Positions 20,961 to 51,607 of a DNA stretch of 64,000 nt are shown piece after piece. This DNA is from Nesterenkonia muleiensis (GTDB lineage: Bacteria > Actinomycetota > Actinomycetes > Actinomycetales > Micrococcaceae). The stretch lies in contig NZ_QWLD01000056.1 of the NCBI RefSeq assembly GCF_003600155.1, positions 124,001 through 188,000 on the forward strand, in the 5' to 3' direction. The notes under the pieces are model-generated. The model did no database searches. It saw nothing but the letters and a program-made list of their open reading frames with translations, and had not been told where the DNA came from. Numbering within the stretch: the stretch's first letter is position 1; each line of letters opens with the position of its first letter. Made by a program: the position numbers and the translations under genes.

Positions 20961-22050
20961 AGGTGGGTCCTCTCGTCAGGGTGGTTTCCAGGTGATTCAG
21001 AAAGCCCTCCGCATCAATGGAGCGGATGAGCTCAGCGTTGGGCGCACAGCCCCAACGACCAAGCCAGTCTGCCACAGTCTCACCCCTGGTGAGGGTGCCT
21101 CTCAGCTCGACGTCGACGGCGGCGGTGCTGGTCCCGGCGGCGGGGAAACCCCGCTCGCCTCTCGGCTGGCTTGCGCGAGCCTTCGGGCCTGAAGCGCTGG
21201 TCCCGGCGGCAGGCACAGGTCCGGTCCAGGGGATGCTCGCCTCAGGTTTCCGCGCCCACTGCAGGGCTGCGGCGAGCACATAGGGGTCGTGGATCTGGGC
21301 CAAATAGCCGTGGCCGTCGTACTCATGGAACTCGAAGTAGAAGCGCAGCGCCTCAGCCAGATGTCCCAGCCACCGGCGCCATACCGGATCCGCTGCGCCG
21401 TGAAGGATCCGCTCAAGCCGCTCCGGTGTCATGACGATGGATTCGGTGGCCTCAAGGGGAGCGAGCACGGGAAGCTGCTGGGCAGCGGCGAACTGCCGGT
21501 AGACCATGGCAGTGGCCTCCGGGTCGAAGTCTGTGTTCCACTCCGTGGTCGGCTTGGTATTGCCCCGGTGGTTGAAAGCCCCGCCCATGATGAAGATCCG
21601 TCTGAGCAATCGGGGCAGTTCTGGTTCCAGCTCCAGGGCGAGCGCAAGGTTCGTGCAGGGTCCGGTGACCACAGCGATCAGCTCGCCCGGATGTGTGTGG
21701 GCGGCATCCACCCAGGCACGGGCCGCGGAGACCGGAGACGGTGTCGCCGACGGCTGCGGGAGAACAGCGTATCCAGTGCCGGAGGGGCCGTGGGTGTCAT
21801 CTGCGTATGCAGGCACGGTGCCTTCGGCGGCATGCCGAAGCGGCAGCTCTGCCCCAGGGTGCACCGGAATCTCGGCTCGGCCGGCCAACTCCAGCCAGCC
21901 CAGCGCGTTGTACACGGTCTGCTCAGCGGGCACATTCCCTGCGGTGGCTGCGACGCAGGTGATCTCCACATCGTCTTGACACAGCAGATAGCCGAGGGCC
22001 ACGGCGTCGTCGATGCCGGGATCGCAGTCTAGGAACAGTGGAATCATCAC
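20947..22050 (-). CDS. Inosine-uridine-type nucleoside hydrolase with in-frame repeat insertion
   Basis: The 367-residue product has the Ca-binding LDCDPGIDDAVAL at the N-terminus, VVTGPCTNLALAL, IMGGAF and EWNTDFDPEA, and the late DPYVLAAAL, all marks of the ribonucleoside hydrolase family. It is about 40 residues longer than usual. The excess lies near residues 280-308 and is encoded by a two-hairpin repeat (21127-21210) whose 15-bp ends give the repeated PAAGTS segments. Coupled to a YhhQ transporter it may act on queuosine, as QueK does, releasing queuine; this is inference. GGAGG lies 11 nt before the GTG. Confidence 0.88.
   Translation of the reverse strand: MMIPLFLDCDPGIDDAVALGYLLCQDDVEITCVAATAGNVPAEQTVYNALGWLELAGRAEIPVHPGAELPLRHAAEGTVPAYADDTHGPSGTGYAVLPQPSATPSPVSAARAWVDAAHTHPGELIAVVTGPCTNLALALELEPELPRLLRRIFIMGGAFNHRGNTKPTTEWNTDFDPEATAMVYRQFAAAQQLPVLAPLEATESIVMTPERLERILHGAADPVWRRWLGHLAEALRFYFEFHEYDGHGYLAQIHDPYVLAAALQWARKPEASIPWTGPVPAAGTSASGPKARASQPRGERGFPAAGTSTAAVDVELRGTLTRGETVADWLGRWGCAPNAELIRSIDAEGFLNHLETTLTRGPTYDDV
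21127..21210. repeat. Two-hairpin repeat, copy A, inside the nucleoside hydrolase gene
   Basis: The 15-bp sequence GCTGGTCCCGGCGGC occurs at 21127-21141 and again at 21196-21210 in direct orientation, 69 bp apart. The reverse complement of the segment between them aligns with copy B (51531-51607): shared blocks include GAAGGC, GCCGAGAGGCG and CCCGCCGCCGG. It can form two small hairpins, one with GCGGGG pairing to CCCCGC. Because the length is a multiple of three the host gene remains open. Confidence 0.7.
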
Positions 22051-22123
22051 CGTCTATTCTGCCTCCGTCTCTTGACCTGACGGGGGGAATTCTTCATAAG
22101 GTGGAATGAAGGGAGTGAGGTTC

Positions 22124-22516
22124 ATGACAGAGACCGTCCGAGCTGAGAAGGCAGAGACTGAGACCGGAATCCGGCAGGACGATGTGCCGTGGGGCCGGGG
22201 ATGGAACTGGCTGCTGACCAATCCGGAGAAGACCGGCTACCGAAGGGTGTTCTTCAACGGTTGTGGGCTGCTGTTTGGCGCGGTCCTCGCCGTATATCTG
22301 TTCCAGAGCACCTCGCAGGACGGCCTGTTCCTCCAACTCGGCAACGGAGTGCAGGTGATTGGCGGATCGCTGGGGCTGGTGATGCTGTGGGCCGGAGGTG
22401 AGTTGCGTCGCGCGCAGAAACCGCTGCGGGACGCGGAGAAGCTGCGGCAAGCCTCGGGTGCTTCGGCGGACTTCCAGGCCCGCCGGGTCAGCATTTCTAG
22501 CGGCAGTCAGGCGTAG
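22124..22516 (+). CDS. Hypothetical membrane protein with two helices
   Basis: The 130-residue product has a hydrophilic N-terminus with a WGRGWNWLLTNPEKTGYRR segment and two hydrophobic stretches (VFFNGCGLLFGAVLAVYLFQ and VQVIGGSLGLVMLWAGG), so both ends are probably cytoplasmic. No family is recognised. The ATG at 22124 is preferred because GGGAGTGAGG lies just upstream. Its end overlaps the convergent purM by 10 bp. Confidence 0.6.
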   Translation: MTETVRAEKAETETGIRQDDVPWGRGWNWLLTNPEKTGYRRVFFNGCGLLFGAVLAVYLFQSTSQDGLFLQLGNGVQVIGGSLGLVMLWAGGELRRAQKPLRDAEKLRQASGASADFQARRVSISSGSQA

Positions 22517-23658
22517 CTGCCGGCCAGCAGCACGCCACCGCCGTCGACTCCCTTGGCGCCCTGGATGAAGTCCTCACCGGCACCAGCGACATCGTCACTG
22601 GAGTAACGATCCACAATGCCCATGACCCAGGACTTCTGCCCAGCGGCGTGGAGACGGGCGACGACGCCGTCGGCCGCCTCAGCCGCCACGACCGCAATCA
22701 TGCCCACCCCCAGATTCAGCGTCCGCTCCAGATCGGCCTGCGGCACCCGACCCAGCTCGGCCATGACGGAGAAGACCTCTGGCCAGGCCCAGGTGGAACG
22801 GTCCACTGTTGCCAGCAGGCCGGCGGGCAGCACGCGGGCCAGATTGGCAGCCATTCCGCCGCCGGTGACATGGCTGAAGCCGCGCACCGGAGCATCGGGG
22901 GCGATCTCCTGCTCAGCAGGATCCCCATTGAAGGCCCTGATGAGGTCCAGGCAGGCTGCGGTGTAGAGCCTGGTCGGCTCCAGAAGCTCCTCGCCCAGGG
23001 TCCGCCCAAACTCGGGGACCTGACGCGAATGGGCCCAGCCGGCTTCCCGTACGATCCGGCGGACCAGGGAATACCCATTGGAATGGAGGCCGGAGGAGGC
23101 CATCCCGATCACCGCATCACCGGGCTGCACCCGTTCTGGACCCAGCACTGCGGAGGCGTCGACGACGCCGGTCGCCGCGCCGGCGACGTCGTACTCGTCC
23201 TCGCCCAGCAAGCCCGGATGCTCTGCGGTCTCCCCGCCCACCAGAGCGGTCTCCGCCTCAGCGGCGGCTTTGGCGATTCCGGAGACGATGGAGGCAATCC
23301 GTGCCGGCTCCACTTTGCCGCAGGCGATGTAGTCGGTCATGAACAGCGGCTTGGCCCCGGTGACCACGATGTCGTCGACCACCATGCCGACCAGGTCGTA
23401 TCCGATGGTGTCGTGGAGGTCCATCGCCTGGGCGATCGCCACCTTGGTGCCCACGCCGTCGGTGGAGGTCGCCAGCAGGGGCCGAGGCAGCCGCTTGAGT
23501 TCCGAAGCGTCATAGAGTCCTGCGAACCCGCCGAACCCGCCGACCACCTGCGGGGTGTGAGTGGCCTCGATATGGGCCTTCATCAGCTCCACGGCACGGT
23601 CGCCGGCCTCCACGTCCACTCCAGCTGAGGCATAGGTGATCGGTGAAGTGTCAGTCAT
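22507..23658 (-). CDS. purM: Phosphoribosylformylglycinamidine cyclo-ligase
   Basis: PurM closes the imidazole ring of aminoimidazole ribotide in purine synthesis, using ATP. The 383-residue product shows TYASAGVDVEAGDRAVELMK, ATSTDGVGTKVAIAQ, DLVGMVVDDIVVTGAKPLF, ALVGGETAEHPG and the late HVTGGGMAANLARVLP that are typical of the family. Its ATG overlaps the purF stop codon by 4 bp, so translation is coupled. The length is near 360-380 as in other actinobacteria. Confidence 0.97.
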   Translation of the reverse strand: MTDTSPITYASAGVDVEAGDRAVELMKAHIEATHTPQVVGGFGGFAGLYDASELKRLPRPLLATSTDGVGTKVAIAQAMDLHDTIGYDLVGMVVDDIVVTGAKPLFMTDYIACGKVEPARIASIVSGIAKAAAEAETALVGGETAEHPGLLGEDEYDVAGAATGVVDASAVLGPERVQPGDAVIGMASSGLHSNGYSLVRRIVREAGWAHSRQVPEFGRTLGEELLEPTRLYTAACLDLIRAFNGDPAEQEIAPDAPVRGFSHVTGGGMAANLARVLPAGLLATVDRSTWAWPEVFSVMAELGRVPQADLERTLNLGVGMIAVVAAEAADGVVARLHAAGQKSWVMGIVDRYSSDDVAGAGEDFIQGAKGVDGGGVLLAGSYA

Positions 23659-25277
23659 CGGCGCGCCCCAGTGGTGATGTCGAAGGCACCGTTGCTGGCA
23701 CCGTTGGCAAGTGCTTCCTCCCTCAGCGGAGGCTCGGCCCCATCGAGCTCGAACTCAGCGTCCGGGCCGGGCTCGCAGCCGGACTGGGGACGGCGATGCG
23801 GCATACCGGGCAGCACCGGCTGCTCCAGCAGCATCTTGCCGCGCCGCTCATCCGGGGGAAGCTCAATCGGGTACTGGCCTGAGAAGCAGGCGGTGCACAG
23901 TGTGGAGCGCGGCTGCCCGGTGGCGGCGATCATGCCCTCCTCTGAGATATAGGCCAGGGAGTCTGCGCCGACGGCGTTGTTGATCTCCTCCAGGGTGGCT
24001 CCGTTGGCGATCAGCTCGGCACGGGTGGCGAAGTCGATCCCGTAGAAGCAGGGCCATTTGATCGGCGGGGAGGAGATCTTCACGTGAATCTCGGCCGCGC
24101 CGGCCTCTTTGAGCATTCTGACAATGGCCCGCTGGGTGTTGCCGCGGACGATGGAATCATCCACCACCACGACCTTCTTGCCGCGCACTACATGCTCCTG
24201 CACGTTGAGCTTGAGCCGGATGCCCAGCTGGCGGAGGGTCTGGCTGGGCTGGATGAAGGTGCGGCCAACGTAGGCGTTCTTGATGAATCCCTGGGCGAAC
24301 GGCAGCCCGGAGGCCTCGGCGTAGCCCACTGCGGCGGGGGTGCCGGACTCGGGCACCGGGATGACGATATCGGCGTCGTGGGTGTCCTCCCGGGCCAGCT
24401 GCCGGCCCATCTCCACGCGGGACTCGTAGACGCTGCGGCCGTTGATATTGGCATCCGGTCTGGCCAAGTACACATATTCGAATACACAGCGCGCCGGAGC
24501 GGACTCTGCGAACTGGTGGGTGCGCACGCCGTCGGCGTCGATGGCGATGAACTCCCCGGGCTCGACCTCCCGGATGATGGAGGCGCCCACAGTGGCCAAG
24601 GCGGACTGCTCCGAAGCCACCACCCAGCCATTGTTGAGCCGGCCCAGCACCAGCGGACGCACGCCCTGTGGATCACGGGCCGCGTAGAGGGTGTTCTCGT
24701 CCATGAATACCAGGCAGAACGCGCCCTTCAGCGTGGGCAGCAGGGCCAGGGCCTGCTCCTCCAGGGACTCCCCGGGCTGGTCCTTCAGCAAAGCGGTGAC
24801 CAGAGCGGTGTCGGTGGTGTTGCCTTGGGCCAGCTCGCCGAACTTGGCCGCGCCGTGGCGGGCGACCACCTGGTCATAGAGATCTGCGGAATTGGTCAGG
24901 TTCCCGTTGTGGCCCAGGGCCACCGTGCCGTGCGGGGTGGCCCCGAGGGTGGGTTGGGCATTGGACCACTGGTTGCCGCCGGTGGTGGAGTAGCGGCAGT
25001 GGCCGATGGCGATGTGTCCGCGCAGCGCATTGAGGGTGGCCTCGTCGAAGACCTGGGAGACCAGTCCGACATCCTTGTAGACCTGGATGTGGTCACCGTC
25101 GGAAGTGGCAATGCCGGCCGACTCCTGGCCGCGGTGCTGCAGAGCGAACAGGCCGTAGAAGGCCAGCTTGGCGACTTCCTCACCGGGGGCCCAGACGCCA
25201 AAGACTCCACATTCGTCTTGAGGGAGCGGGTCCTCATCAAGGAGGTGGTGATTGAGGCGGCCGTCTCCGCGAGCCAT
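23655..25277 (-). CDS. purF: Amidophosphoribosyltransferase
   Basis: PurF performs the first committed step of purine synthesis, transferring glutamine ammonia to PRPP. The 540-residue product has a short propeptide, then the nucleophilic Cys in DECGVFGVW that becomes N-terminal after processing, the glutaminase half with GHCRYSTTGG and GHNGNL, and the PRPP loop VVVVDDSIVRGNT in the phosphoribosyltransferase half. The cysteines in ATRAEL to CTACFSGQYP may hold an iron-sulfur cluster. The C-terminal 50 residues are hydrophilic and unconserved. It is cotranscribed with a small membrane protein 2 bp upstream and purM downstream. Confidence 0.97.
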   Translation of the reverse strand: MARGDGRLNHHLLDEDPLPQDECGVFGVWAPGEEVAKLAFYGLFALQHRGQESAGIATSDGDHIQVYKDVGLVSQVFDEATLNALRGHIAIGHCRYSTTGGNQWSNAQPTLGATPHGTVALGHNGNLTNSADLYDQVVARHGAAKFGELAQGNTTDTALVTALLKDQPGESLEEQALALLPTLKGAFCLVFMDENTLYAARDPQGVRPLVLGRLNNGWVVASEQSALATVGASIIREVEPGEFIAIDADGVRTHQFAESAPARCVFEYVYLARPDANINGRSVYESRVEMGRQLAREDTHDADIVIPVPESGTPAAVGYAEASGLPFAQGFIKNAYVGRTFIQPSQTLRQLGIRLKLNVQEHVVRGKKVVVVDDSIVRGNTQRAIVRMLKEAGAAEIHVKISSPPIKWPCFYGIDFATRAELIANGATLEEINNAVGADSLAYISEEGMIAATGQPRSTLCTACFSGQYPIELPPDERRGKMLLEQPVLPGMPHRRPQSGCEPGPDAEFELDGAEPPLREEALANGASNGAFDITTGARR

Positions 25278-25279
25278 GC

Positions 25280-25561
25280 TCAGCGTTCTCCCGCCGGTTC
25301 GATGTCATAGGTGGTGCTCCGCCGTCGCATCATCTTCTCCACCGTCAGCCATGCTGTGGCTCCCAGTGTGACCGCCGGCAGGCAGAGCACCAACGTGATA
25401 TAGCCCAGTGAGGCGCCACGCGAGTAGTTGGGGTCTTGGGGAGTGGAATACACCAGGACGACTGCCGCGGTGAACGCTACCGCCGCTGCGCCGACCATGA
25501 ACGGCAGAAGCTTGGGGGCGCGGCGAACGCTCACCTGACGGTGCTGCGTGCTTGGGGGCAT
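25280..25561 (-). CDS. Small two-helix membrane protein upstream of purF
   Basis: The 93-residue product has two hydrophobic segments (LLPFMVGAAAVAFTAAVVLVY and LGYITLVLCLPAVTLGATAW) with a PQDPNYSRG loop between and a basic tail. Similar small proteins often precede purF in Micrococcaceae, but their function is unknown. It ends 2 bp before purF begins and is the first gene of the purF-purM operon. The start is supported by a -10 box 7 nt upstream and no ribosome binding site. Confidence 0.7.
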   Translation of the reverse strand: MPPSTQHRQVSVRRAPKLLPFMVGAAAVAFTAAVVLVYSTPQDPNYSRGASLGYITLVLCLPAVTLGATAWLTVEKMMRRRSTTYDIEPAGER

Positions 25562-25568
25562 AGAGACG

Positions 25569-25574
25569 ATTCTA
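25569..25574 (-). promoter_or_regulatory. -10 box for leaderless purF operon transcript
   Basis: On the minus strand TAGAAT is followed by 7 nt and the ATG at 25561. The spacing predicts that the mRNA of the membrane protein-purF-purM operon begins at or next to the start codon. Confidence 0.55.
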
Positions 25575-25625
25575 CTGCGCTGGCGCTCTAACCCTCAATC
25601 GCCTCGAAAATCTGGACGCGGGTGC

Positions 25626-26051
25626 TCATCCGGCGATCCGCAGCAGCGGCAGATGGACTGAGAGGTCGGCACGGGTACCAGAGGCAGTGATGCTGCCCGC
25701 CTGGTGGGCTGCAGCCCAGCTGATGCCTCCGGTGGCCAGCCTCAACCACGTGGTCGGATCGATCTCGATCACATTCGGCGGGGTGCCGCGGGTGTGGCTA
25801 GGACCTTCTACGCACTGGGTGACGCCGAAAGGCGGAACCCGGACCTCCACCGAGTGCCCAGGTGCGCGTTCGGTTAGCTCCTCCAAAAGATAACGCACAG
25901 CGGTGGCAAGTGTCCGGCGGTCAGGGGAGTGCCCGGCATCGTGCCGCTGGCCCCACGTCCGCACCGCAGCCTGACCGTCCTGAGCGGCAATCCGGCGTCG
26001 TGCCACAGTGCGCTTCTCCTTTTCAGTGGTTTTGGGGAAATCAGCAAGCAT
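25626..26051 (-). CDS. Sterol carrier-like family protein
   Basis: The 141-residue product carries the pattern ARRRIAAQDGQAAVRTW, TLATAVRYLLEELTERAPGHSVEVRVPPFG, GPSHTRGTPPNVIEIDPTTWLRLA and SASGTRADLS-like ending, which belongs to the actinobacterial sterol carrier family (SCP-like fold, presumed lipid or hydrophobic ligand binder of unknown function). The ATG at 26051 is chosen over an upstream ATG because the extra 37 residues would run into the asparaginase-type gene and are not family-like. It lies 64 bp after that gene in the same direction. Confidence 0.8.
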   Translation of the reverse strand: MLADFPKTTEKEKRTVARRRIAAQDGQAAVRTWGQRHDAGHSPDRRTLATAVRYLLEELTERAPGHSVEVRVPPFGVTQCVEGPSHTRGTPPNVIEIDPTTWLRLATGGISWAAAHQAGSITASGTRADLSVHLPLLRIAG

Positions 26052-26115
26052 CCTAGAGGACCCTGAAATCCCAACAAGGGCCTGGTATTTCCTTTGGACG
26101 GATCGGGGGCAGGTC

Positions 26116-27144
26116 TCAGAGTGCTGAGGCCACGCTCTCTGAGACGCGCAGTTCACCGGCAAGCAGTTGGTCAGCGCCGCCGGTGATCGGTTTGACCAGG
26201 ATCTTCAACACCCGCTCGAGATCATGGAGCTCGACTTTGCCGGCGGCAGCCAACAGGCTCAGCGCCACCAGATGGTTGGGCCGCGAGGAGCCGTCGAGGG
26301 TCTTGACCGCAACGGTTGTGCCGTCGCCAGCGGCCACCACCAGTACGCCCTCAGCCCCGGACTTGGCCAGCAGCCCGAGCTGCTCAGTGACCACCGTGTC
26401 TGATTCACCCTCCCCGCGGACCGCCCAGGGGTAGTCGAGCATGGCCTGGGCCACGGTGAAGGCGTGCACCTCAGCCTCCCGGCGGCTCAGCGAGGAAGTC
26501 ATCCGCCCGATGCCGCGGGCCAGGGCCGTCAGGCTCATGGCAGCCGCCGGCGCCCCGCAACCGTCGACTCCCGTGGCCGCAGGTTCCTCGCCGCAGTATT
26601 CGGCATACACCTGATTGACCACCTGCTGGACCGGATGGTCGGGCTCTGCATAGGTGGCCAGGCGTGAACCCTGGGTCCGTGCGGCGGCAAGGAAAGCTGC
26701 ATGCTTGCCCGAACAGTTGAACGCCAGCGCGGTCTTGCCCCGCCCAGCCTGAAGGTGAGTTCGCAGGTCAGCGCTGTGTCCCGGATATGCCGCGGGGCAC
26801 CTCAGATAGGACTCATCCAGCCGTTCCTTAGCCAGTGTGGCGGCGGCCAGGTCCTGGTGCCGTGGTGAGCCCACGTGCGATCCGCAGGCCAGAGCCACGG
26901 CTTCGGGGCTGATCAGCGCACCTGCTCGCAGCGAGGCAACAGCCTGCAGCGGTTTAAGCGCAGAGCGGGGAAACATCGGCTTCTGCACGGCGCCGAGACT
27001 TTGCAGAACGGTGCCGTCGGGGGCGATGAGTACCGCTGATCCGATGTGGCGGGATTCAATGATCCCTCCCCGGGTCACCACCGCCAGCTCAGCAGATTCC
27101 GATGCAGTGGGTGTATGCAGAACGGTGGTGGAGGTTCCTGTCAT
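26116..27144 (-). CDS. Asparaginase of the Rhizobium type II family
   Basis: The 342-residue protein matches the thermolabile Rhizobium etli-type asparaginase family rather than the bacterial type I/II enzymes: ELAVVTRGGIIESRHIGSAV, FPRSALKPLQA, CGSHVGSPRH, FNCSGKHAAFLAA and GVDGCGAPAAAMSL are visible. The conserved Ser-Lys pair (RSALKP) and the Cys residues of the metal-binding site in that family are present (ALACGSH, VDGCGAP). It should hydrolyse asparagine to aspartate and ammonia in the cytoplasm. A -10 box lies 6 nt before the ATG. Confidence 0.88.
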   Translation of the reverse strand: MTGTSTTVLHTPTASESAELAVVTRGGIIESRHIGSAVLIAPDGTVLQSLGAVQKPMFPRSALKPLQAVASLRAGALISPEAVALACGSHVGSPRHQDLAAATLAKERLDESYLRCPAAYPGHSADLRTHLQAGRGKTALAFNCSGKHAAFLAAARTQGSRLATYAEPDHPVQQVVNQVYAEYCGEEPAATGVDGCGAPAAAMSLTALARGIGRMTSSLSRREAEVHAFTVAQAMLDYPWAVRGEGESDTVVTEQLGLLAKSGAEGVLVVAAGDGTTVAVKTLDGSSRPNHLVALSLLAAAGKVELHDLERVLKILVKPITGGADQLLAGELRVSESVASAL

Positions 27145-27150
27145 GGAGCC

Positions 27151-27156
27151 AGTCTA
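27151..27156 (-). promoter_or_regulatory. -10 box for leaderless asparaginase transcript
   Basis: On the minus strand TAGACT is followed by 6 nt and the ATG at 27144, with no ribosome binding site between. The rest of the gap 27157-27299 shows no recognised feature. Confidence 0.5.
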
Positions 27157-27299
27157 CGGGTGTGATTTTGTCCGCTGCAGGACCAAGAGCAACTTACCCG
27201 GGTCCAGGGCGCGGTACTGGTGGGCGGTGATTCTCGTCTGACCTGCCGGGGTACCGACTGTGCGGTTCAAGGGTCCATCAAGGGTTTGGTGCGTGCATC

Positions 27300-30544: not shown

Positions 30545-30554
30545 AAGGAACGTC

Positions 30555-31949: not shown

Positions 31950-31960
31950 AAGCCGCAGGG

Positions 31961-33547: not shown

Positions 33548-33702
33548 TGCTCAACTCCTGCGGCAGGCAGGGTCCGGGGGGCGGCTCGCAAGGAGCGGGA
33601 TGCGACTTAGGTGCTCGGCCATATGCGACTCCGTCTACAGTGCTGTGATCTCTCAATCGTAGCGCGGGCGGGGGAGATGTCCGAGCGGGACCGCGTGTGC
33701 TT

Positions 33703-33726
33703 CAGGTCATACCTGACCTGGGTATG
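33703..33726. promoter_or_regulatory. Overlapping inverted repeats, possible operator
   Basis: CAGGTCA (33703-33709) and TGACCTG (33714-33720) are perfect 7-bp arms around a 4-nt spacer. CATACC (33708-33713) and GGTATG (33721-33726) form a second inverted repeat that overlaps the first. This nested symmetry in a divergent gap suggests competing regulators, or one regulator with two modes of binding. Confidence 0.5.
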
Positions 33727-33814
33727 TAAACCGGCCAGTGCCCTGCCGGTCATCGACGACCCGGCTTGGTGTCCACCTCACGATGCTTACGCCTTCAAAG
33801 AGGTGACAGGGAAT

Positions 33815-33881: not shown

Positions 33882-34715
<834 letters not shown>

Positions 34716-36076: not shown

Positions 36077-37098
36077 GCGCGGCCGTGCAGGACACGAGCC
36101 CGTACAGTCCGCAGGAATTGCCAGGGTGGGAGCACGTCTCCTCCGGCAAGGTCCGCGAGATCTACGCCCCGGCCTCGGGCTCCGCGTGGCACGGGAAGCA
36201 GGTTCTCCTGATGGTCGCCACTGATCGGATCAGCGCCTATGACCATGTGCTCACCCCGGGGATCCCGGACAAAGGCGTGATCCTCACCCAGCTGAGCCTC
36301 TGGTGGTTCCAGCAGTTGGCGGCTGAAGGCATCGGCAACCATGTGGTCACCGCCGAGGTGGGAGAGCGTGGTGTGCCAGAGTCCGTCGCCGGGCGCGGGA
36401 TGATCGTGAAGCGACTGGAGATGGTCGAGGCCGAGGCCATTGTGCGCGGATACCTGACCGGCTCCGGGCTGGCCGAGTACCGTGAGTTCGGCACAGTCAA
36501 CGAGATTCCGCTGCCTGCAGGGCTTGAGGACGGAAGCCGACTGCTCAAGCCGATCTTCACCCCCTCGACCAAGGCCGAGCAGGGCGGCCACGACGAGAAC
36601 ATCAGCTTCGAGGACTTGGAGCACACGATCGGCACCGACCTGGCGAGTAAGCTGCGCGAGGCCAGCCTGAAGGTTTACTCCCTGGCTGAGGCCATCGCGC
36701 GTCAAGCTGGCATCATCCTGGCCGACACCAAGTTCGAGTTCGGTCTGGATGAAGCAGGTGGGCTGGTGCTCGCCGATGAGGTACTCACCCCGGATTCCTC
36801 ACGGTTCTGGCCGGAAGCCGAATGGGAGCCTGGGAAAGCTCAGCCCAGCTTTGATAAGCAGTTCGTGCGCAACTGGCTCAGCTCGCCGGAGTCCGGGTGG
36901 ACGAATCAGAGATCCGTCCTTCCCTCAATCGCCTCGGGAGGCCCTGAGCAAGCTCAGGTCTCCTCTCGGCTCAATCGTCCACGGGACAGAGCCGGTGATA
37001 CCGCCCCGCCACCGCTTCCAGAGCACATCGTCATTGCTACCCGGGACCGCTATCTGGACGCCTACCGCCGGCTCACCGGAACTGATCTGAACCTCTGA
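36073..37098 (+). CDS. purC: SAICAR synthase with palindromic in-frame insertion
   Basis: PurC joins aspartate to CAIR using ATP. The 341-residue product has GKVREIY, MVATDRISAYDHV, VEAIVRGYLTGSG-like EAEAIVRGYLTGSGLAEYR, PSTKAEQGGHDENI and ILADTKFEFGL, then FDKQFVRNWLSSPESGW. Usually only a few residues separate this from the APPPLP segment; here residues 277-310 intervene, encoded by a palindromic element. The insert is at the C-terminal edge, away from the active site, so the enzyme is expected to work. The gene ends inside the 3-prime end of the convergent channel gene (26-bp overlap). Confidence 0.95.
   Translation: MSAAVQDTSPYSPQELPGWEHVSSGKVREIYAPASGSAWHGKQVLLMVATDRISAYDHVLTPGIPDKGVILTQLSLWWFQQLAAEGIGNHVVTAEVGERGVPESVAGRGMIVKRLEMVEAEAIVRGYLTGSGLAEYREFGTVNEIPLPAGLEDGSRLLKPIFTPSTKAEQGGHDENISFEDLEHTIGTDLASKLREASLKVYSLAEAIARQAGIILADTKFEFGLDEAGGLVLADEVLTPDSSRFWPEAEWEPGKAQPSFDKQFVRNWLSSPESGWTNQRSVLPSIASGGPEQAQVSSRLNRPRDRAGDTAPPPLPEHIVIATRDRYLDAYRRLTGTDLNL
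36898..37002. repeat. Palindromic in-frame element in purC
   Basis: The segment encoding the extra purC residues is bounded by GGACGA (36898-36903) and TCGTCC and contains a strong inner hairpin (CCTGAGC and GCTCAGG separated by AA, extended by GGAG and CTCC). A 15-nt piece, CCCTCAATCGCCTCG at 36922-36936, occurs again at 25592-25606 next to the purF operon. The element does not align over its length with the two-hairpin repeat family apart from a shared AGCCGAGAGG (reverse strand). Confidence 0.5.
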
Positions 37099-41878: not shown

Positions 41879-41927
41879 ACTGCAACTACTTTACTCCTCG
41901 ATCCGGGGGAAGGACAAGCTGCTCCTG

Positions 41928-45117: not shown

Positions 45118-45124
45118 GATCTAT

Positions 45125-45130
45125 ATGATA
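45125..45130 (-). promoter_or_regulatory. -10 box for leaderless PBP transcript
   Basis: On the minus strand TATCAT is followed by 7 nt and the ATG at 45117, with no ribosome binding site. Confidence 0.5.
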
Positions 45131-45276
45131 TCGGCCCCGTCAAACCGCGCAGGATCCCACGCTCAAGGGGCGCATGAACCCCTGACAGGTGTGATGGTCG
45201 GCATCAGCTGACCGAGGCGGGCCCTTCCTGACATCAGGGGCCGAGGTGGCCTTGCCGCCCGGCAGAACCGGCGCTG

Positions 45277-45282
45277 TAGCAT
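45277..45282 (+). promoter_or_regulatory. -10 box for leaderless ATP-grasp ligase 1 transcript
   Basis: TAGCAT is followed by 6 nt and the GTG at 45289. The gap 45131-45276 shows no other recognised signal and no WhiB-like gene. Confidence 0.45.
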
Positions 45283-45288
45283 GAGGCG

Positions 45289-46536
45289 GTGACTTCCACT
45301 GCAGTTCAAGCCGCCCGCAGCGCTGGATTCCTGCCGGTGATCCTCGGCACCAATATCCACGGCTACACCCATGCCCGCAGCTTCCACGAGACCTACGGCG
45401 TCAAACCGGTGATGATCGGCAAGATCAAACTGGGTTTCACCTGGGACAGCAGCATTCTGGAGCTGGAACTCCACCAGGACATTGCCGACGACGCCGGTTT
45501 CCTCCCCCGGCTCACCGAGCGGGCCCAGGAGCTGTCCCAGCAGTACCAGGTTCCGCTGCTGCTGGTGCCCAGCACCGATATCTATGTGGAACTGGTCACC
45601 CGGCACCAGCAGGCCCTGTCCGAGCACTTCCTCTTCAACACCCCGGAGGAGCCGCTGCGCCAGAAGTTCATGGACAAGCAGCGGTTCTACGAGCTGGCCG
45701 CCGAACACGGTGTGGACATTCCCGAGACTCAGGTGCACCAGGTCGGCGAGGCTTTCGAGCTTGAGGTGGACCGCTTCCCGGTGATCATCAAGCCGGCCAA
45801 CCCCAACCAGTGGTGGCACAACCAGCACAAGGTGGCCAGGCACCAGAAGGTCTACCGGCTCAACACAGCACAAGAGGTGGCCCAGGTGGTTGCTGCCGTG
45901 GAGGCCTCCGACTACCGGGATGCGCTCATCATCCAGGAGTTCATCCCCGGCGACGACACCAACATCTGGGACTCGGTGCTCTATCTCAACACGGAGGGCA
46001 AGTGCGAACTGGTCACCCTGGGGCGAGTCGCTCTCCAGGAGCATGAGTCACACCTGGTGGGCTCCTACACCGCGATCATCTCCCGCTACGACGAATCGTT
46101 GATGCTGACCTACAAGGACTTCCTGGAGGCCGTCGGCTATACCGGAGTGGCCAATGTGGACATCAAATACGACCCCCGCGACAACAAGTACAAAGTCATG
46201 GAGATCAACGCGCGCCCGGGCCGCTCCAGCTACTACACCGCCCTGCTGGGCCACCCGGTCATGCAGTACCTGGTCGATGACCTGGTCTTCGGCCGGCGCA
46301 AGGAGACCACCCTGGCCCAAGGGGATGTGCTCTTCCACGTCGCGCCCCGCTACATCCTCCGGAAATACGTCACCAATACCGAAGTCCGCGCCGAGGTGGA
46401 CCGGCTCATCAAGCAGGGCAAGGCGACCAACCCCCTGTGGTACCGGGCAGACCGCTCACCCAAGCGGCTGGCCTATCTGGCCGGCCGGCACCTCCGCCAA
46501 GGCAAGAAATACCAATCTGCGACCTGGCGGCTGTGA
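45289..46536 (+). CDS. ATP-grasp carboxylate-amine ligase 1, D-aspartate-ligase-like
   Basis: The 415-residue protein starts with FLPVILGTNIHGYTHARSFHETYG, the form seen in D-aspartate ligases that activate D-Asp for the peptidoglycan cross-bridge of enterococci and lactococci (PVVLG-type start, ARSF). An ATP-grasp core follows (FPVIIKPANPNQWW, ALIIQEFIPGDDTNIWDSV, metal-binding MEINARPGRSS). It lies beside a class A PBP and a paralogue is 2 kb away. Micrococcaceae with A4alpha peptidoglycan need an enzyme to add D-Asp or L-Glu to the lysine side chain, so that role is inferred. The start is a GTG. Confidence 0.78.
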   Translation: MTSTAVQAARSAGFLPVILGTNIHGYTHARSFHETYGVKPVMIGKIKLGFTWDSSILELELHQDIADDAGFLPRLTERAQELSQQYQVPLLLVPSTDIYVELVTRHQQALSEHFLFNTPEEPLRQKFMDKQRFYELAAEHGVDIPETQVHQVGEAFELEVDRFPVIIKPANPNQWWHNQHKVARHQKVYRLNTAQEVAQVVAAVEASDYRDALIIQEFIPGDDTNIWDSVLYLNTEGKCELVTLGRVALQEHESHLVGSYTAIISRYDESLMLTYKDFLEAVGYTGVANVDIKYDPRDNKYKVMEINARPGRSSYYTALLGHPVMQYLVDDLVFGRRKETTLAQGDVLFHVAPRYILRKYVTNTEVRAEVDRLIKQGKATNPLWYRADRSPKRLAYLAGRHLRQGKKYQSATWRL

Positions 46537-46560
46537 CGGCGCTGTGCTTTACACGTCCGC

Positions 46561-46566
46561 TAGGCT
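46561..46566 (+). promoter_or_regulatory. -10 box for leaderless DUF4177 transcript
   Basis: TAGGCT is followed by 7 nt and the ATG at 46574. It is 25 bp after the ATP-grasp stop codon. Confidence 0.45.
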
Positions 46567-46573
46567 GTGAGGC

Positions 46574-46738
46574 ATGGCTGAACTGACACAGTGGGAGTAC
46601 GCCACTATTCCGCTCATCATCCACAACACTAAAGGGATCCTGGACCAGTGGGGCGAGGACGGCTGGGAGCTGGTCGCCGTGCTTCCTGGGCCTGAGGGGA
46701 ACGCCCCGGTGGCCTATCTGAAGCGTCCCAAGCAATAA
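46574..46738 (+). CDS. DUF4177 small protein
   Basis: A 54-residue protein starting MAELTQWEYATIPL with the family pattern GEDGWELVAVLPGPE and YLKRP at the end. DUF4177 proteins have about 50 to 60 residues, unknown function and lie next to RidA in many actinobacteria (Rv3678A-like). It is too short for usual gene callers but its codon use and its family pattern are convincing. The RidA gene begins 13 bp after its stop, so they are cotranscribed. Confidence 0.85.
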   Translation: MAELTQWEYATIPLIIHNTKGILDQWGEDGWELVAVLPGPEGNAPVAYLKRPKQ

Positions 46739-46751
46739 GTAGGAGCCCTGA

Positions 46752-47219
46752 ATGTCCTCAGTAGAAGAACGCCTCTCCGCACTCGGCCTCACCGTGCCTG
46801 AGGTGGTGCCGCCGGTGGCCGCCTACCAGCCCGCCGTCGTGATCGACAATGTCGTCTACGTCTCCGGACAGCTTCCGCTGATCAATGGAGAGCTTCCGGC
46901 CGCCGGAAAGGTCGGCACCGGCCCCAACGCCCAGGTGACCCCCGAACAGGCATACGAGCTGGCCAAGCAGTGCGGGCTGAACCTGATCGCCGCCCTGAAG
47001 TCGGTGGTCGACCTGGACAGCATCACCAGAATCGGCAAAGTCGGTGGCTTCGTGGCCTCCGAGCCGGACTTCACCGGTCAGCCCACAGTGATCAACGGTG
47101 CCTCCGAGCTCCTGGGACATGCCTTCGGTGAGATGGGAACCCATGCCCGCAGCGCTGTCGGGGTGGCGGTGCTGCCGCTGGACACCCCGGTCGAAGTGGA
47201 CCTGATCGCTCACCTGTGA
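46752..47219 (+). CDS. RidA family protein
   Basis: RidA proteins hydrolyse reactive enamines or imines formed by PLP enzymes. The 155-residue product has the trimer barrel pattern VYVSGQLPLINGELPAAGKVG, ITRIGKVGGFVASEPDF and HARSAVGVAVLPLDTPVEVDLIA, with the Arg (HAR) in the usual place. It is of the longer YjgF-like type common in actinobacteria. TAGGAG precedes the ATG and the gene directly follows DUF4177. Confidence 0.9.
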   Translation: MSSVEERLSALGLTVPEVVPPVAAYQPAVVIDNVVYVSGQLPLINGELPAAGKVGTGPNAQVTPEQAYELAKQCGLNLIAALKSVVDLDSITRIGKVGGFVASEPDFTGQPTVINGASELLGHAFGEMGTHARSAVGVAVLPLDTPVEVDLIAHL

Positions 47220-47321
47220 GGCCTGGGCGGGCACTGGATCAGCGCTCGCCTCGGTCACTGGCCAAACGCGGCCCGCTTCCCTCAGCTCCCTTGCCCAGCA
47301 CTCCGCCAGAACCACACAGGA

Positions 47322-48563
47322 ATGCACTTGCCACAGAAATTCGTCCCCGTCATCATCGGGACAGACCTGAACGCCTACCACATGGCGGCCTCCTTCCACG
47401 AGGCCTTTGGCGTGAAGCCGCATGTCATCGGTAAGGTGCAGCTGGGATTCACGCACTACTCGACCATCATCGGGCCCATCACCTATGTGGAGAACCTCGA
47501 CGACGCCGAGGTGTTCGTCCCCGCCCTGCGGGAGTACGCCGAACAGCTGGCCGCTGAGGTGCCGCTGCTGCTGGTGGGCACCAGCGACCACTATGTGCGG
47601 CTGATCATCGAGAACGCTGCCCAGCTGGAGGATCTCTACCGGTTCAACTACCCCTCCGAGGACCTGCTCAACGCTCTGCACGTCAAGGACGCCTTCTACC
47701 CTCTGGCGCAGCAGCACGGGCTGGAGATCCCGGAGACGCAGATCCACCAGGTCGGGGACCCCGTGGAGGCGCTCGACGGTGCCATCACCCGTTACCCGGT
47801 CATTCTCAAACCGGGCAACAGCGTGGAGTACTACCGCAAGAAGTTCCCCGGACAGGAGAAGGTCTACCGGCTGAACTCCTATCAGGAAGTGGCCGGCGTC
47901 GTCGGGCGTATTGCTGACTCCGGCTACCGCGGCACCCTCATCATCCAGGACTTCATCCCCGGCGACGACACCTTCATCTGGGACTCAGTGCTCTACCTCA
48001 ATACTGAGGGCAGGGCAGAGTTCGTGAACTTCGGGCAGGTGCTGCTGCAGGAGCACGAGGCCTCCGCAATCGGCAACTACACCGCGATCATCTCCCGGTT
48101 CAACCGCGAAGTCATGACCCAGCTCAAAGAGTTCTTAGAGACCATCGGCTACACCGGGATCGCGAACTTCGACATCAAGTACGACGCCCGCGACGACGCC
48201 TTCAAAGTCCTCGAGGTTAATGTGCGCCAGGGCCGGTCCAGCTGGTATGCGACCGCACAGGGGCACAACCTCGCCGGATATCTGGTGGAAGACCTGATCC
48301 GCGGCAACCGCCGGGATGAGGGGAAGTGTGCGTATGCGGATGCCGAGGTGCTGTTCACCGTGGTGCCCAAGTACATCCTGCGCAGATACGTCACCGCACC
48401 CGGGGTGCGCGACGACGTCGCCCGCCTCATCCGGCAGAAGAAGGTGCGCAACCCGCTTTACTACCGCGGGGACCACTCAGCGCTGCGCCGTGCGTGGCTG
48501 GCAGTCCGGGCCGTGCGCTACCGCAGGAAGTACGCCAAAGCCACCTGGCGTGAGCAGGTCTAG
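47322..48563 (+). CDS. ATP-grasp carboxylate-amine ligase 2, paralogue of ligase 1
   Basis: The 413-residue protein is alike over its length with the product at 45289: FVPVIIGTDLNAYHMAASFHEAFG, YPVILKPGNSVEYY, TLIIQDFIPGDDTFIWDSVLYLNTEG, GYTGIANFDIKYDARDD and LEVNVRQGRSSWY. The two are clearly paralogues in the D-aspartate-ligase-like ATP-grasp group. The TDLNAY stretch is closer to the Asl family than ligase 1. The ATG at 47322 is close to AGGA, and TTG 47328 is a possible alternative start. It sits where the metallo-beta-lactamase gene is usually found between RidA and Crp in related loci. It ends 12 bp before the convergent crp. Confidence 0.8.
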   Translation: MHLPQKFVPVIIGTDLNAYHMAASFHEAFGVKPHVIGKVQLGFTHYSTIIGPITYVENLDDAEVFVPALREYAEQLAAEVPLLLVGTSDHYVRLIIENAAQLEDLYRFNYPSEDLLNALHVKDAFYPLAQQHGLEIPETQIHQVGDPVEALDGAITRYPVILKPGNSVEYYRKKFPGQEKVYRLNSYQEVAGVVGRIADSGYRGTLIIQDFIPGDDTFIWDSVLYLNTEGRAEFVNFGQVLLQEHEASAIGNYTAIISRFNREVMTQLKEFLETIGYTGIANFDIKYDARDDAFKVLEVNVRQGRSSWYATAQGHNLAGYLVEDLIRGNRRDEGKCAYADAEVLFTVVPKYILRRYVTAPGVRDDVARLIRQKKVRNPLYYRGDHSALRRAWLAVRAVRYRRKYAKATWREQV

Positions 48564-48575
48564 AACCAACCGGCC

Positions 48576-49253
48576 CTAGCGGGAGCGCTGGCGGATCCGC
48601 TGGATGTCGAGGATGACCACGGCGCGTGCCTCCAACCGCAGCCAGCCGCGCTGGACGAACTCGGCCAGCGCCTTGTTGACCGTCTCCCGGGAGGCGCCGA
48701 CCAGCTGGGCCAGCTCCTCCTGGGTGAGTTCGTGGGCCACCAGGATGCCGTCGGGTGCGGGGCGGCCGAAGCGGTCGGCCAGATCCAGCAGCGCCTTGGC
48801 CACACGGCCTGGCACATCGGAGAAGACCAGGTCAGCCAGGGATTCGTTGGTGCGGGTCAGGCGCTTGGCCAGCGCCTGCAGCAGCTGCACCGAGATATCC
48901 GGGTTGGAGGCGATGATGTCCTTGAGGTTCTGGTGCTTCAGGCCGGCCAGCCGGGTCTCGGAGACCGCAGTGGCTGTCGCGGTGCGCGGTGCCGGGTTGA
49001 ACAGGGCCATTTCGCCGAAGATCTCACCGGGGCCCAGTACGGCCAGCAGGTTCTCACGGCCGTCCGGTGTGGAGCGGCCCAGCTTGATCTTGCCGGAGAT
49101 GATGAAGTAAAGCTGATCGCCCTGATCGCCTTCGTGGAACACAGAGGATCCGCGGGAGAGCTCCACCTCGGTGAGCTCATTGGTCAGCGCTGAGAACACA
49201 TCGTCATCAAGGGTGGCGAACAGTGGAGCGCGCCGCAGCACTTCGAGATCCAT
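48576..49253 (-). CDS. Crp/GlxR family cAMP-type regulator
   Basis: The 225-residue product has a cyclic nucleotide-binding domain (FHEGDQGDQLYFIISGKIKLGR, GPGEIFGEMALF-NPAPRTATATA with the phosphate-binding Arg) and a Crp-type helix-turn-helix (LTQEELAQLVGASRETVNKALAEF). It is nearly the family consensus of GlxR/Crp in Actinobacteria, a global regulator of carbon metabolism. The ATG at 49253 (MDLEVLRRAPLF) is chosen because the family starts there; an in-frame ATG at 49280 would add nine residues. It is divergent from marP. Confidence 0.95.
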   Translation of the reverse strand: MDLEVLRRAPLFATLDDDVFSALTNELTEVELSRGSSVFHEGDQGDQLYFIISGKIKLGRSTPDGRENLLAVLGPGEIFGEMALFNPAPRTATATAVSETRLAGLKHQNLKDIIASNPDISVQLLQALAKRLTRTNESLADLVFSDVPGRVAKALLDLADRFGRPAPDGILVAHELTQEELAQLVGASRETVNKALAEFVQRGWLRLEARAVVILDIQRIRQRSR

Positions 49254-49336
49254 TACCGTTCCATTCTCTGGGTGTGACATTGACCTTGGGTATGGAATAG
49301 AAGTTACCAGGTTGTAGTCCTGTCAGGCTAACGTAT

Positions 49337-50515
49337 ATGTTCGTGACTTTACTGGACATCGTCCTGGCGCTTGTGGTGTTGGGCTTCGTGGCCGCCGGTT
49401 TCGCCCGCGGAGTGTGGGCAACCTTGGGCGGCGCCGCGGGGTTTTTGGTCGGCGCAGTGGCGGCGTTCTTCGCGATCCCCCTCGTGGCGTCCTGGGTGCC
49501 GGACCCGCTGTGGAGGGTGATCGCTGTGATCGGTTGTGCGATCGTGCTGGTGGTCGCCGGACATGCCCTGGGCACGGCGGCAGGTGCCGAGGTGCAGCGG
49601 ATGTTCCGCTCCCCGGCGTTGCGGACCGTCTCTGCGCTGGTGGGGGCGGTGGTGAACCTCCTGGTGGCTTTCGTGGTCATCGCGGCCTTGAGCTTCTCGG
49701 TCCAGGCCATGGGATTTCCGCAGGTCAACCAGCATATGAAGCAGTCGGTGGTGCTGCAGGGCATCAACACGGCCATGCCGGACCGGGTGGAGGCGGTGTT
49801 CGCCGATATGCGCTCTGCGGTGATGGCCTCAGACATCCCGGAGCTCGCCCAGCTGCTGGTCCCGGAGGTCGAACACGCGCCGGAGTCGGGTGAGCTGACC
49901 GACGCCGCGGCGGCGACGTCGCAGGCGGTGGCCCGGATCACCGGTGTGGCTCAGCAGTGCGGCCAGTCCCAGTCCGGTTCGGGGGTGGCGGTCTCGCCGA
50001 ACCGTGTGGTGACCAACGCCCATGTGGTGGCCGGTGTCTCTGAACCTACGGTGGAGATGCCCGGCGGCGAGGTCCTCACCGCCCGGGTGGTTCATTTCAA
50101 CCCCGCCAGGGACCTTGCCCTCTTGGCGGTGGATACGCTCGAGGTCGCCCCCGCCCCGGTTGCCGGACCCATGGAAGCCGGTGTCACCGGCTATGTGATG
50201 GGCTATCCCTCCGGTGGGCCGTTCGTGGCGTCCCCGGCAGTGGTGCAGGCCCGCGATGTCTCCCAGATCAACAACATCTACGGGGCCTCGCCCTCCGAGG
50301 TGGAGATCTATCAGCTCAACGCCGATGTGCGGCAGGGCAACTCCGGCGGGCCGCTGGTGGACCGGGACGGGAATGTGGCCGGAATCGTCTTCGCCCGCGC
50401 CATGGAGGGCAATGCGGTGGGGTTCGCGGTCACAGCCGACGCCGCCGGCGATGTGCTCTCCAGCCCGGACTCCTTCACCGAGACGGTCTCCACCGGTCAA
50501 TGTGTGGAGCGTTGA
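49337..50515 (+). CDS. MarP-like periplasmic serine protease with CvpA-like membrane domain
   Basis: The 392-residue protein has four N-terminal helices of CvpA type and a trypsin-like domain with triad His 229 (TNAHVV), Asp 259 (ARDLALL) and Ser 336 (GNSGGPL). Two cysteines, in QQCGQSQSG and TGQCVER, could form the disulfide known to activate MarP. In mycobacteria this protein is needed for acid and oxidative stress resistance through envelope hydrolase processing. A possible alternative start is GTG 49343, 8 nt after a TAACGT box. It lies beside crp as in other actinobacteria. Confidence 0.93.
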   Translation: MFVTLLDIVLALVVLGFVAAGFARGVWATLGGAAGFLVGAVAAFFAIPLVASWVPDPLWRVIAVIGCAIVLVVAGHALGTAAGAEVQRMFRSPALRTVSALVGAVVNLLVAFVVIAALSFSVQAMGFPQVNQHMKQSVVLQGINTAMPDRVEAVFADMRSAVMASDIPELAQLLVPEVEHAPESGELTDAAAATSQAVARITGVAQQCGQSQSGSGVAVSPNRVVTNAHVVAGVSEPTVEMPGGEVLTARVVHFNPARDLALLAVDTLEVAPAPVAGPMEAGVTGYVMGYPSGGPFVASPAVVQARDVSQINNIYGASPSEVEIYQLNADVRQGNSGGPLVDRDGNVAGIVFARAMEGNAVGFAVTADAAGDVLSSPDSFTETVSTGQCVER

Positions 50516-50572
50516 TCATCCCACAGCCCACACTGCGCACAAGTGCATCACGCGCGCAGGCTGCGGTCGCGG

Positions 50573-51019
50573 TCAGGATCGAAGCAGCGCAGCGAGGTGC
50601 TCGACGGCGAACCGGTAGCCGGCTACCCCCGCCCCGGCGATCACCGCGCTGGCGTGGGGGGAGACGTAGGAATGGTGCCGGAAGGATTCACGGGCGTGCA
50701 CATTCGACAGGTGCACCTCCACCACCGGGAGATTCACCGCCGCCAGCGCATCGGCGATCGCCACCGAGGTGTGGGTGTAGGCGGCCGGATTGATCACGAT
50801 GCCTTCGGCCGTGCCGTGGGCAGCCTGGATCGTATCGACCAGCTGGCCCTCATGGTTCGACTGCACCGTGTCCACCGCGAAGCCGCGTGCGGCAGCGGTC
50901 GTTCGGCACAGCTCATTGATGTCCTCGAGACTCTGTGTGCCGTAGATCCCCGGTTCACGGGTCCCGAGCAGGTTGAGGTTCGGCCCATGCACAATCAGCA
51001 GCCGTCCGGTCTCAGTCAT
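50573..51019 (-). CDS. aroQ: Type II 3-dehydroquinate dehydratase
   Basis: The enzyme dehydrates 3-dehydroquinate in the shikimate pathway. The 148-residue product has [17 protein letters not shown] with the catalytic Tyr, [35 protein letters not shown] and FRHHSYVS, all conserved in the dodecameric type II family. The ATG at 51019 follows GGAAGCGAG; an in-frame GTG at 51037 would add six residues. Its end runs close to that of the convergent marP (57-bp gap). Confidence 0.95.
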
Positions 51020-51090
51020 TATTCGCTCGCTTCCCACATGTCACTGCGCGAACCAGGGTGTCCCGGCTCGCTGTCTTGTCAGACTACCCC

Positions 51091-51435
51091 TCAGCACCGC
51101 GGGCCGCTGTAGACGTGGATGTGCAGGTGTTTCGAATCCTGGTAGTTGCCCAGATTCGTGAGCACGCCCGCTGCGCCGTGTTCCGTCTCCACTGCATGGG
51201 CGACTGCCTGGACCGTCTGGAACAGTGCTCGCATATCCGCTCCGTCCTCAGCGGTGACTGAACTCAGGGATGCGATATGACGCTTAGGCACCACAGCGAT
51301 GTGCACCTCCCAGAACGGGCGAGTGTGGTGGTAGGCCAGGACCAGCTCATCCTCGTGCACCACATCCAGCCGTTCAGGGTGCGGGATGGCGACGTCGCAG
51401 TAGAAGTCGGAGCCGGAATACAGATCTGAGGTCAC
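51091..51435 (-). CDS. HIT family nucleotide-binding protein
   Basis: The 114-residue protein has the histidine triad HLHIHVYSG (residues about 102-110) preceded by the beta-hairpin HTRPFWEVHIAVVPKRHIASL. HIT proteins hydrolyse AMP-lysine or related nucleoside phosphoramidates. It is upstream of aroQ on the same strand with a 71-bp gap. A TAGCTT box lies 6 nt before the GTG start. Confidence 0.85.
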   Translation of the reverse strand: MTSDLYSGSDFYCDVAIPHPERLDVVHEDELVLAYHHTRPFWEVHIAVVPKRHIASLSSVTAEDGADMRALFQTVQAVAHAVETEHGAAGVLTNLGNYQDSKHLHIHVYSGPRC

Positions 51436-51441
51436 TGGCTC

Positions 51442-51447
51442 AAGCTA
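51442..51447 (-). promoter_or_regulatory. -10 box for leaderless HIT gene transcript
   Basis: On the minus strand TAGCTT is followed by 6 nt and the GTG at 51435, with no ribosome binding site. Confidence 0.45.
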
Positions 51448-51530
51448 ACAGGGGGAGAGCGCATGGTTGCCGCTGTACCGTGAGGTGAGGCTCGGTGCGT
51501 AGTCAGCGAGCCGGCTTCAGGCGCGCCCCC

Positions 51531-51607
51531 GGAACCAGCTTTAGGCGTGAAGGCCGGCGTGAGCCGGCCGAGAGGCGGCGGGACATGTGCCCGCCGCCGG
51601 AACCGGC
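51531..51607. repeat. Two-hairpin repeat, copy B, intergenic
   Basis: GGAACCAGC (51531-51539) and GGAACCGGC (51599-51607) bound the element, 68 bp apart. Within it two perfect stems form: GGCCGGC (51552-51558) with GCCGGCC (51563-51569), loop GTGA, and GGCGGCGGG (51574-51582) with CCCGCCGCC (51590-51598), loop ACATGTG. It lies just past the acs stop codon on its downstream side, so it may also act as a terminator for acs. Confidence 0.7.

Follow-up and report, generated by a model that had tools for sequence, protein, structure and literature searches.

Positions 124,001 to 188,000 of contig NZ_QWLD01000056.1 (forward strand; assembly GCF_003600155.1) of Nesterenkonia muleiensis, a stretch of 64,000 nucleotides called the window below, carry a short two-hairpin segment once inside a gene (copy A, 21127-21210) and once between genes (copy B, 51531-51607). 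What kind of element is this, and how did it come to lie in such different places? An earlier note, made from the letters alone, had located both copies and suggested an undescribed small palindromic element. We found the copies at these positions, with two hairpins in each and with about 75 bp that could be aligned between them in the same order of blocks. Our results indicate that they probably belong to a family of modular palindromic repeats that are non-autonomous, mobilised in trans and similar in kind to repetitive extragenic palindromes (REPs) and bacterial interspersed mosaic elements (BIMEs).

Copy number and distribution

Copy B used as a query gave 45 matches in its own genome at E ≤ 10. 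A covariance model (R1), derived from 23 core copies that had been aligned without regard to structure (alignment A2), gave at least 135 matches at E ≤ 0.1 in the same genome (G000, 3.68 Mb). The suggestion of a repeated element is therefore supported, and the possibility that there are no further copies fails. All copy counts are lower bounds, obtained from 150 scored candidates in this genome, 84 per genome in the genus and in other genera, and 16 per genome in the family.

At E ≤ 0.001, R1 matched 11 of the 30 genomes of the genus Nesterenkonia and none of the 28 genomes of other genera. In a family-wide sample, matches with E ≤ 1e-5 occurred in 10 of 295 genomes and in one of 32 genera, which was again Nesterenkonia. 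The number of matches per bearing genome ranged from 2 (G010) to at least 84 (G000). In a midpoint-rooted FastTree tree of three concatenated proteins, the 11 bearing genomes fell within one clade of 13 with a support of 0.952; the two members without a match are 79% and 62% complete. The restriction to one clade and the uneven match counts speak for a single origin followed by uneven growth. Most likely, the family arose once, in one Nesterenkonia clade, and was amplified from a few to at least 100 copies per genome.

Scanning named genomes with a sequence pattern returned 33 loci, and R1 matched all 22 that lie in Nesterenkonia (N. alkaliphila F10, N. massiliensis NP1, N. ebinurensis MD2, N. 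alba DSM 19423 and Nesterenkonia sp. bin114). The 11 loci from outside the genus were taken as chance; one of them (L218) gave a weak R1 match (18.4 bits, E 0.024). No match at E ≤ 1e-3 was found in the plasmids searched. The viral contigs contained one pattern match, at a locus without an R1 match at E ≤ 0.1.

Compensatory changes in the stems

We compared the folding energy of the element strand with that of shuffled sequences. Copy B folded better than its shuffles (z −3.35) and copy A did not (z −0.15). Folding energy was therefore rejected as evidence for the element, and the case for the fold was built on covariation across copies. In A2, 98.6% of the cells were paired, compared with 83.5% in shuffles, and 12 of the 15 pairs showed two-sided changes, compared with 4.0 in shuffles; none of 500 shuffles reached 12. 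When the pairing partner was moved by 1-3 columns, pairing was at most 57.6%. A second alignment of 100 distinct copies from the N. muleiensis genome (A3), which was fitted to the structure, had 95.4% of its cells paired and two-sided changes in all 15 pairs. These compensatory changes bear out what the earlier note had proposed from two copies: the pairing is under selection.

The z-score of copy A fits one element of a further explanation, namely that the likeness of the copies is due to chance or that the segment was part of the ancestral protein, because a high G+C content eases the formation of hairpins. This explanation is refuted by the genome-wide family and by unfilled orthologous sites (see below), and we give it practically no credence.

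Hairpin B was closed by a tetraloop in 78 of the 100 distinct copies, and 63 of these 78 loops were of the form GNNA (42 GNRA, 17 GTCA). In 16 copies the loop had 8 or 9 nt, mostly resembling GCCTCTGCA, while the remaining 6 had loops of other lengths. As DNA, hairpins with GNNA loops and those formed by GCGNAGC have unusual stability. We also looked by eye at a possible third stem in CTTCAGGCGTGAAG; it is broken in copies with GATG, and we do not claim it. In A2, the choice between A and T in GTGAWG tends to track the second pair of stem C by eye, with GATG accompanying GCCG-type stems; this association could reflect lineage or contact.

Anatomy of the unit

The core unit of about 67-75 bp consists of CTTCAGGYGTGAWG, hairpin B, GAGAG, hairpin C and the tail GGRACCARC, often followed by ACTG, ACAG or TCAG. 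The earlier note described a palindromic fold bounded by short direct repeats. The fold stood, and so did the repeats themselves: CGGRACCRGC occurs twice in copy A (21127-21136 and 21196-21205, minus strand, 69 bp apart) and twice in copy B (51530-51539 and 51598-51607, plus strand, 68 bp apart). The window contains 7 matches to this motif versus 1.55 expected, a number reached in none of 100 shuffles. The repeats are not the bounds of the element, however, but the tails of units; a partial unit precedes the core, and the tail is thus present twice. Two copies alone could not show that the element also has a head, further modules and tandem arrays.

Copy A lies on the minus strand. Its core unit, with modules A, B and C and the tail, spans 21121-21194 (R1 86.6 bits, E 7.9e-22). 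According to the R1 alignment and covariation, hairpin B is located at 21164-21181 (loop GCAA, with one of seven pairs broken) and hairpin C at 21136-21159. A remnant of the preceding unit, recognised by its sequence as the end of hairpin C plus the tail CCGGGACCAGC, occupies 21195-21214 and is the source of the upstream direct repeat; other copies have a fuller version of this arrangement.

Copy B, on the plus strand, extends leftward to about 51485. It begins with a head module (GTGAG..., 51485-51512) that contains the hairpin GGCTCG...CGAGCC (51489-51512) and resembles heads found elsewhere. The head is followed by a truncated preceding unit (CTTCAGGCG...CCCCCGGAACCAG, 51515-51538), comparable by sequence to partial tandem units at other places, and by the core unit (51539-51607; R1 match 51539-51613, 88.2 bits, E 3e-22). 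Folding and the R1 alignment place hairpin B at 51552-51569 (loop GTGA) and hairpin C at 51574-51598. The junction ACTGA + TCA (51608-51615) contains the TGA stop codon, read as TCA on this strand, of an acetyl-CoA synthetase gene on the minus strand (51613-53703).

In total, the window holds four copies. The third, of a type with a long loop in hairpin B, lies at 54598-54676 on the plus strand (R1 38.6 bits), in the N-terminal part of an open reading frame (ORF; 54567-55442) and ahead of its NUDIX domain. The Pfam NUDIX match of this ORF is above the cut-off, and its match to a CoA pyrophosphatase model is below the cut-off of that model. The fourth copy (45183-45278, plus strand; R1 29.5 bits, E 4.7e-06) is decayed and interrupted, and is located between genes.

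Modules and tandem forms

The arrangement of units was read at 97 of 101 places (four had no locus), from the matches listed and with 34 further places with model matches outside this set. The head, present in some copies, is about 28 nt long, starts with TGAG, has its own hairpin and usually includes GCGNAGC. Within 45 nt to the left, 19 of the 100 copies had GCGNAGC or a match to a loose head pattern, although two of these 19 look like chance; GCGNAGC alone was present there in 17 of 100 copies compared with 155 of 5,000 control stretches. A whole or partial unit precedes some copies, and a unit tail was found just upstream of 31 of the 100. Among the 62 copies with a readable tail, 34 had WCWG after it. 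WCWG was considered as a possible fixed tetranucleotide of the host; at the acetyl-CoA synthetase (acs) site, however, it appears to belong to the element itself.

Units are also combined with other repeat modules. Head, E and F modules are joined to units in several copies, and modules E and F were found at 9 and 8 distinct places, respectively, in the window and the loci of the N. muleiensis genome. Module E (CCGATTGAGCCGAG...CCGAGGCGATTGAGGGTTG) has an inverted core of its own and is sometimes joined to a unit; it is present in the window at 36922-36977 (minus strand) and at L144, L058, L160, L170, L060, L148, L054 and L159. Module F is a long imperfect palindrome (GACGTCAGGGACCCGTGCAAACGC...GCGTTTGTGCGGGCCACGTC) that in places lies beside a unit or replaces hairpin C (L007, L050, L141, L172, L014, L035, L040 and L171).

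The tandem units in G014 differ in their stem sequences and by eye still look paired, and G005 has a run of 12 model matches in a register of about 67 bp. The multimers inspected are arranged head to tail and not as inverted pairs, although orientation was not counted systematically. The G005 array (L287, G005:C5:65000-69000) consists of about 12 near-identical 67-bp units directly before a possible start codon, and is a candidate variable-number locus. An array in G014 contains a run of N (L179, about 8986-9056), which is either masked sequence or a gap in the assembly.

Position relative to genes

Gene positions were taken from a gene finder of our own that had been trained on the window and on the retrieved loci. 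Of 100 distinct copies, 16 were inside a predicted ORF, 37 had a convergent gene that ended at their 3′ end or close to it, and 19 were located just before a gene start. Hence, 84 of the 100 copies were not wholly within a predicted ORF, and the family is dispersed, mostly extragenic and of high copy number. Three of the 16 copies within ORFs are in ORFs of 51, 67 and 88 amino acids, which are probably spurious.

In 18 of the 37 copies with a convergent gene, the stop codon was at offset −6 (TGA from CTCAG), and in seven it was at offset −11 (TAG from GGGACTAR, with CTA in most); the remaining 12 were spread. For four genes we compared the position of the stop codon with that in relatives. These genes encode acetyl-CoA synthetase, IlvC, LipA and an AcuC-like deacetylase, the last three being names that we assume from the protein sequences. 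In all four, including the deacetylase gene that was compared with G014, G024, G004 and G013, the stop was at its usual position. Thus, the element touches or supplies the stop codon of these genes and leaves the protein unchanged.

Orthologous sites, compared by eye at acs, lipA and ilvC, were filled in some genomes and empty in others. The acs site is filled in G000, whereas G029 has the same neighbouring gene without the element. Units follow lipA immediately or shortly after its stop codon in G000, G029 and G014, and are missing in G015, G001, G005, G007, G010 and others; the site in G024 looks decayed. Downstream of ilvC, a recognisable hairpin and tail were present past the stop codon in five of the 30 genomes (G000, G029, G004, G014 and G024). 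The lipA and ilvC sites are thus filled in some species and empty in others, and the native C-termini are retained. No target duplication was visible by eye at the copy flanks or at the lipA and ilvC sites.

Exact adjacency to stop codons would also be expected of a functional RNA or DNA element, such as a 3′ mRNA stabiliser, an attenuator or a terminator, that is selected at gene ends and copied by recombination. The strong compensatory pairing and the many GNRA-type loops (42 of 78) point in the same direction. However, the copies occur in both orientations to genes, in frame within coding regions, in tandem arrays and at patchy orthologous sites. Furthermore, Rfam 15 at the gathering score returned a single tRNA from 12 sources and no match to the element. 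At E ≤ 10 there were nine sub-threshold matches in 6 loci, the best of which (ctRNA_p42d, 30.2 bits versus a cut-off of 50) adjoins a copy in L016. The consensus, read by eye, lacks the T-run after hairpin C that an intrinsic terminator would have; it continues with GGGACCAGCACTG in one direction and with CTCTCGG in the other. We therefore regard a primarily functional element as unlikely.

Copies inside proteins

Copy A lies in frame within a nucleoside hydrolase gene (20947-22050, minus strand; IU_nuc_hydro, Pfam PF01156, 4e-80), in agreement with the placement of this copy in a coding region by the earlier note. It adds about 29 amino acids between IPW and TAAVDVEL. We aligned 17 of 19 homologues (the protein itself and 16 relatives; L105 and L107 were dropped, as they lacked the motif used to pick the frame). 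The insert was present only in the N. muleiensis protein, at a spot that is a variable linker in some relatives. The segment is therefore not an ancestral part of this protein, a possibility that the earlier note had left to such a comparison.

Long-loop copies were enriched in ORFs, where they made up 8 of 16 copies compared with 8 of 84 elsewhere (p = 0.0005). All eight long-loop copies within ORFs are read antisense to the element and encode a common peptide close to SAGPAGGETPxxSRPRAEAAAxTPEA. Of these peptides, one is truncated where its contig ends, another begins differently and agrees from GETP on, and a third is more diverged. The host proteins include an Lhr-type helicase (two copies), a xanthine-dehydrogenase-like protein (two copies), a PhnL-like ABC ATPase, an SseB-domain protein, a TIGR03089 protein and an oxidoreductase with a Rossmann-like NAD-binding domain. 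The names Lhr, xanthine dehydrogenase and PhnL are based on NCBIfam scores under the curated cut-offs, while the Pfam domains pass theirs. For the inner copy of the helicase, the first copy of the xanthine-dehydrogenase-like protein and the ATPase, the Pfam match spans the insert, which appears as extra query length. The evidence for in-frame insertion comes from a comparison with relatives for the nucleoside hydrolase and from domain matches for the other hosts. Copies are thus inserted in frame in functional genes, as in Rickettsia palindromic elements (RPEs).

These copies bear on a further reading that we entertain tentatively. The family might represent a class of single-strand palindromic elements that is independent of a transposase or served by an unknown enzyme, with a tail that is joined at stop codons without target duplication, and with a protein-coding subtype as part of the class. 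In this subtype, the 9-nt loop would keep one frame open and would add a standard peptide resembling xAGPAGGETPxxSRPRAEAAAxTPEA to enzymes.

Searches for a mobilising enzyme

If the family is mobilised in trans, as we consider probable, a folded single DNA strand would be the substrate of an enzyme that has since been lost or was not recognised. The tail end of the element would be linked to host DNA, at a stop codon or close to one, and no target duplication would result. The tandem and mosaic forms could then arise by recombination among adjacent units. Copies would be kept mainly where they are harmless: immediately after a stop codon, ahead of a start codon, or within a protein as a soft peptide linker. 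The transcribed hairpins may double as 3′ mRNA structures, possibly as a side effect.

Ordinary REPs or REPINs would be moved by a Y1 transposase of the RAYT type. PMC3733652 describes REPs as numerous, hairpin-forming repeats at the ends of genes that supply stop codons and also occur in ORFs, and all these traits are found in the Nesterenkonia family. However, PF01797 (Y1/RAYT) at E ≤ 1e-4 had no match in any of the 11 bearing genomes, whereas the control search matched E. coli and four other genomes. Moreover, the 23-copy consensus, read by eye, has neither GTAG nor CGTC at the foot of hairpin B or C, and the multimers inspected are direct and not inverted. This explanation is thereby largely refuted as a present-day system in the sampled genomes, and we consider it quite improbable. 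The only Y1 match among the 30 genus genomes (L178, G006:C1:570565-570867) is in G006, which is 79% complete and has no match to the element.

The size and copy number of the elements, and the fact that in some copies the four bases at either end are symmetric (TGAG...CTCA), recall miniature inverted-repeat transposable elements (MITEs), i.e. deleted insertion sequences moved by a DDE transposase. Yet at the copy flanks and the lipA site, any inverted repeat at the termini was, by eye, no longer than about four bases, no target duplication was visible, and the conserved parts are the internal hairpins and not the ends. An origin as a MITE is very improbable.

Several observations weigh against mobilisation in trans. 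The PF01797 search supplied no candidate for the enzyme; PF04986 (IS91-type Y2), the only other enzyme family searched, had no match, but neither did its control, and that search carries no weight. Neither a target duplication nor a long terminal inverted repeat was seen, so insertion itself is an inference. The proposal that a DNA strand is folded draws on loop preferences as its one line of evidence, and 42 of the 63 GNNA loops also fit the RNA-stable GNRA form. Of the 100 copies placed, 28 had no neighbouring gene end within the limits used. The empty lipA sites of G015 and G001 may be deletions or clean losses rather than sites that were never filled. The five filled ilvC sites all differ in their junction, which may reflect independent insertions or decay.

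Comparison with known repeat families

The Nesterenkonia repeats share with REPs and BIMEs the short hairpin units in high copy number, the mosaics with other modules and the location of many copies downstream of genes. According to PMC3733652, the termini of GTAG REPs often supply the stop codon of flanking ORFs, and intragenic REP copies have been reported. In contrast to REPs and BIMEs, the Nesterenkonia unit is larger, with two long hairpins in about 67-75 bp and an optional head hairpin. It has no GTAG or CGTC tag, the multimers inspected are direct, and no RAYT was found in the bearing genomes.

Three other groups invite comparison, as the same source describes them. RPEs likewise have in-frame copies in likely functional proteins. 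They consist of a different unit, however, whereas the 9-nt-loop subtype in Nesterenkonia is enriched in ORFs in one orientation and frame, and most copies are outside ORFs; this distinction is drawn from the description of RPEs only. CGTC REPs, too, are palindromic repeats that apparently have no transposase of their own, but the Nesterenkonia units lack the CGTC tag and have another architecture. MITEs (NEMIS and ERIC are named in PMC3733652) are similar in size range and in their insertion next to genes, and differ in having terminal inverted repeats of 15-30 bp; in Nesterenkonia no such repeats, and no target duplication, were seen. Since no REP tag, RAYT or MITE ends were found and the multimers inspected are direct, we assign the family to a REP/BIME-like kind and not to a named family.

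Among actinomycetes, untagged REP-like repeats occur in Mycobacterium tuberculosis (PMC3733652), which we know by description only. The RepRanger paper (PMC12306157), likewise known by description, has three Actinomycetota in its table and does not name Nesterenkonia in the text available. We found no published description of the family in the literature searched, the coverage of which excluded most subscription journals and bioRxiv preprints. Hence, the kind of repeat is already known, while a REP/BIME-like family with a new architecture in a clade of Actinomycetota, and with no tyrosine transposase found, appears to be new.

PMC3733652 leaves two questions open: the relation of untagged palindromic repeats to REPs, and the way in which CGTC REPs are mobilised. 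The related Nesterenkonia species, with match counts from 2 to at least 84, offer a tractable case for both, and the in-frame subtype is a natural experiment on the tolerance of proteins to inserted linkers. Many contigs of the N. muleiensis assembly start or end in or near a unit (C13, C15, C16, C18, C25, C38, C39, C47, C53, C57 and others), as expected for a repeat that breaks assemblies. These coincidences suggest longer arrays beyond the resolution of the assembly, and the units could possibly be used for strain typing.

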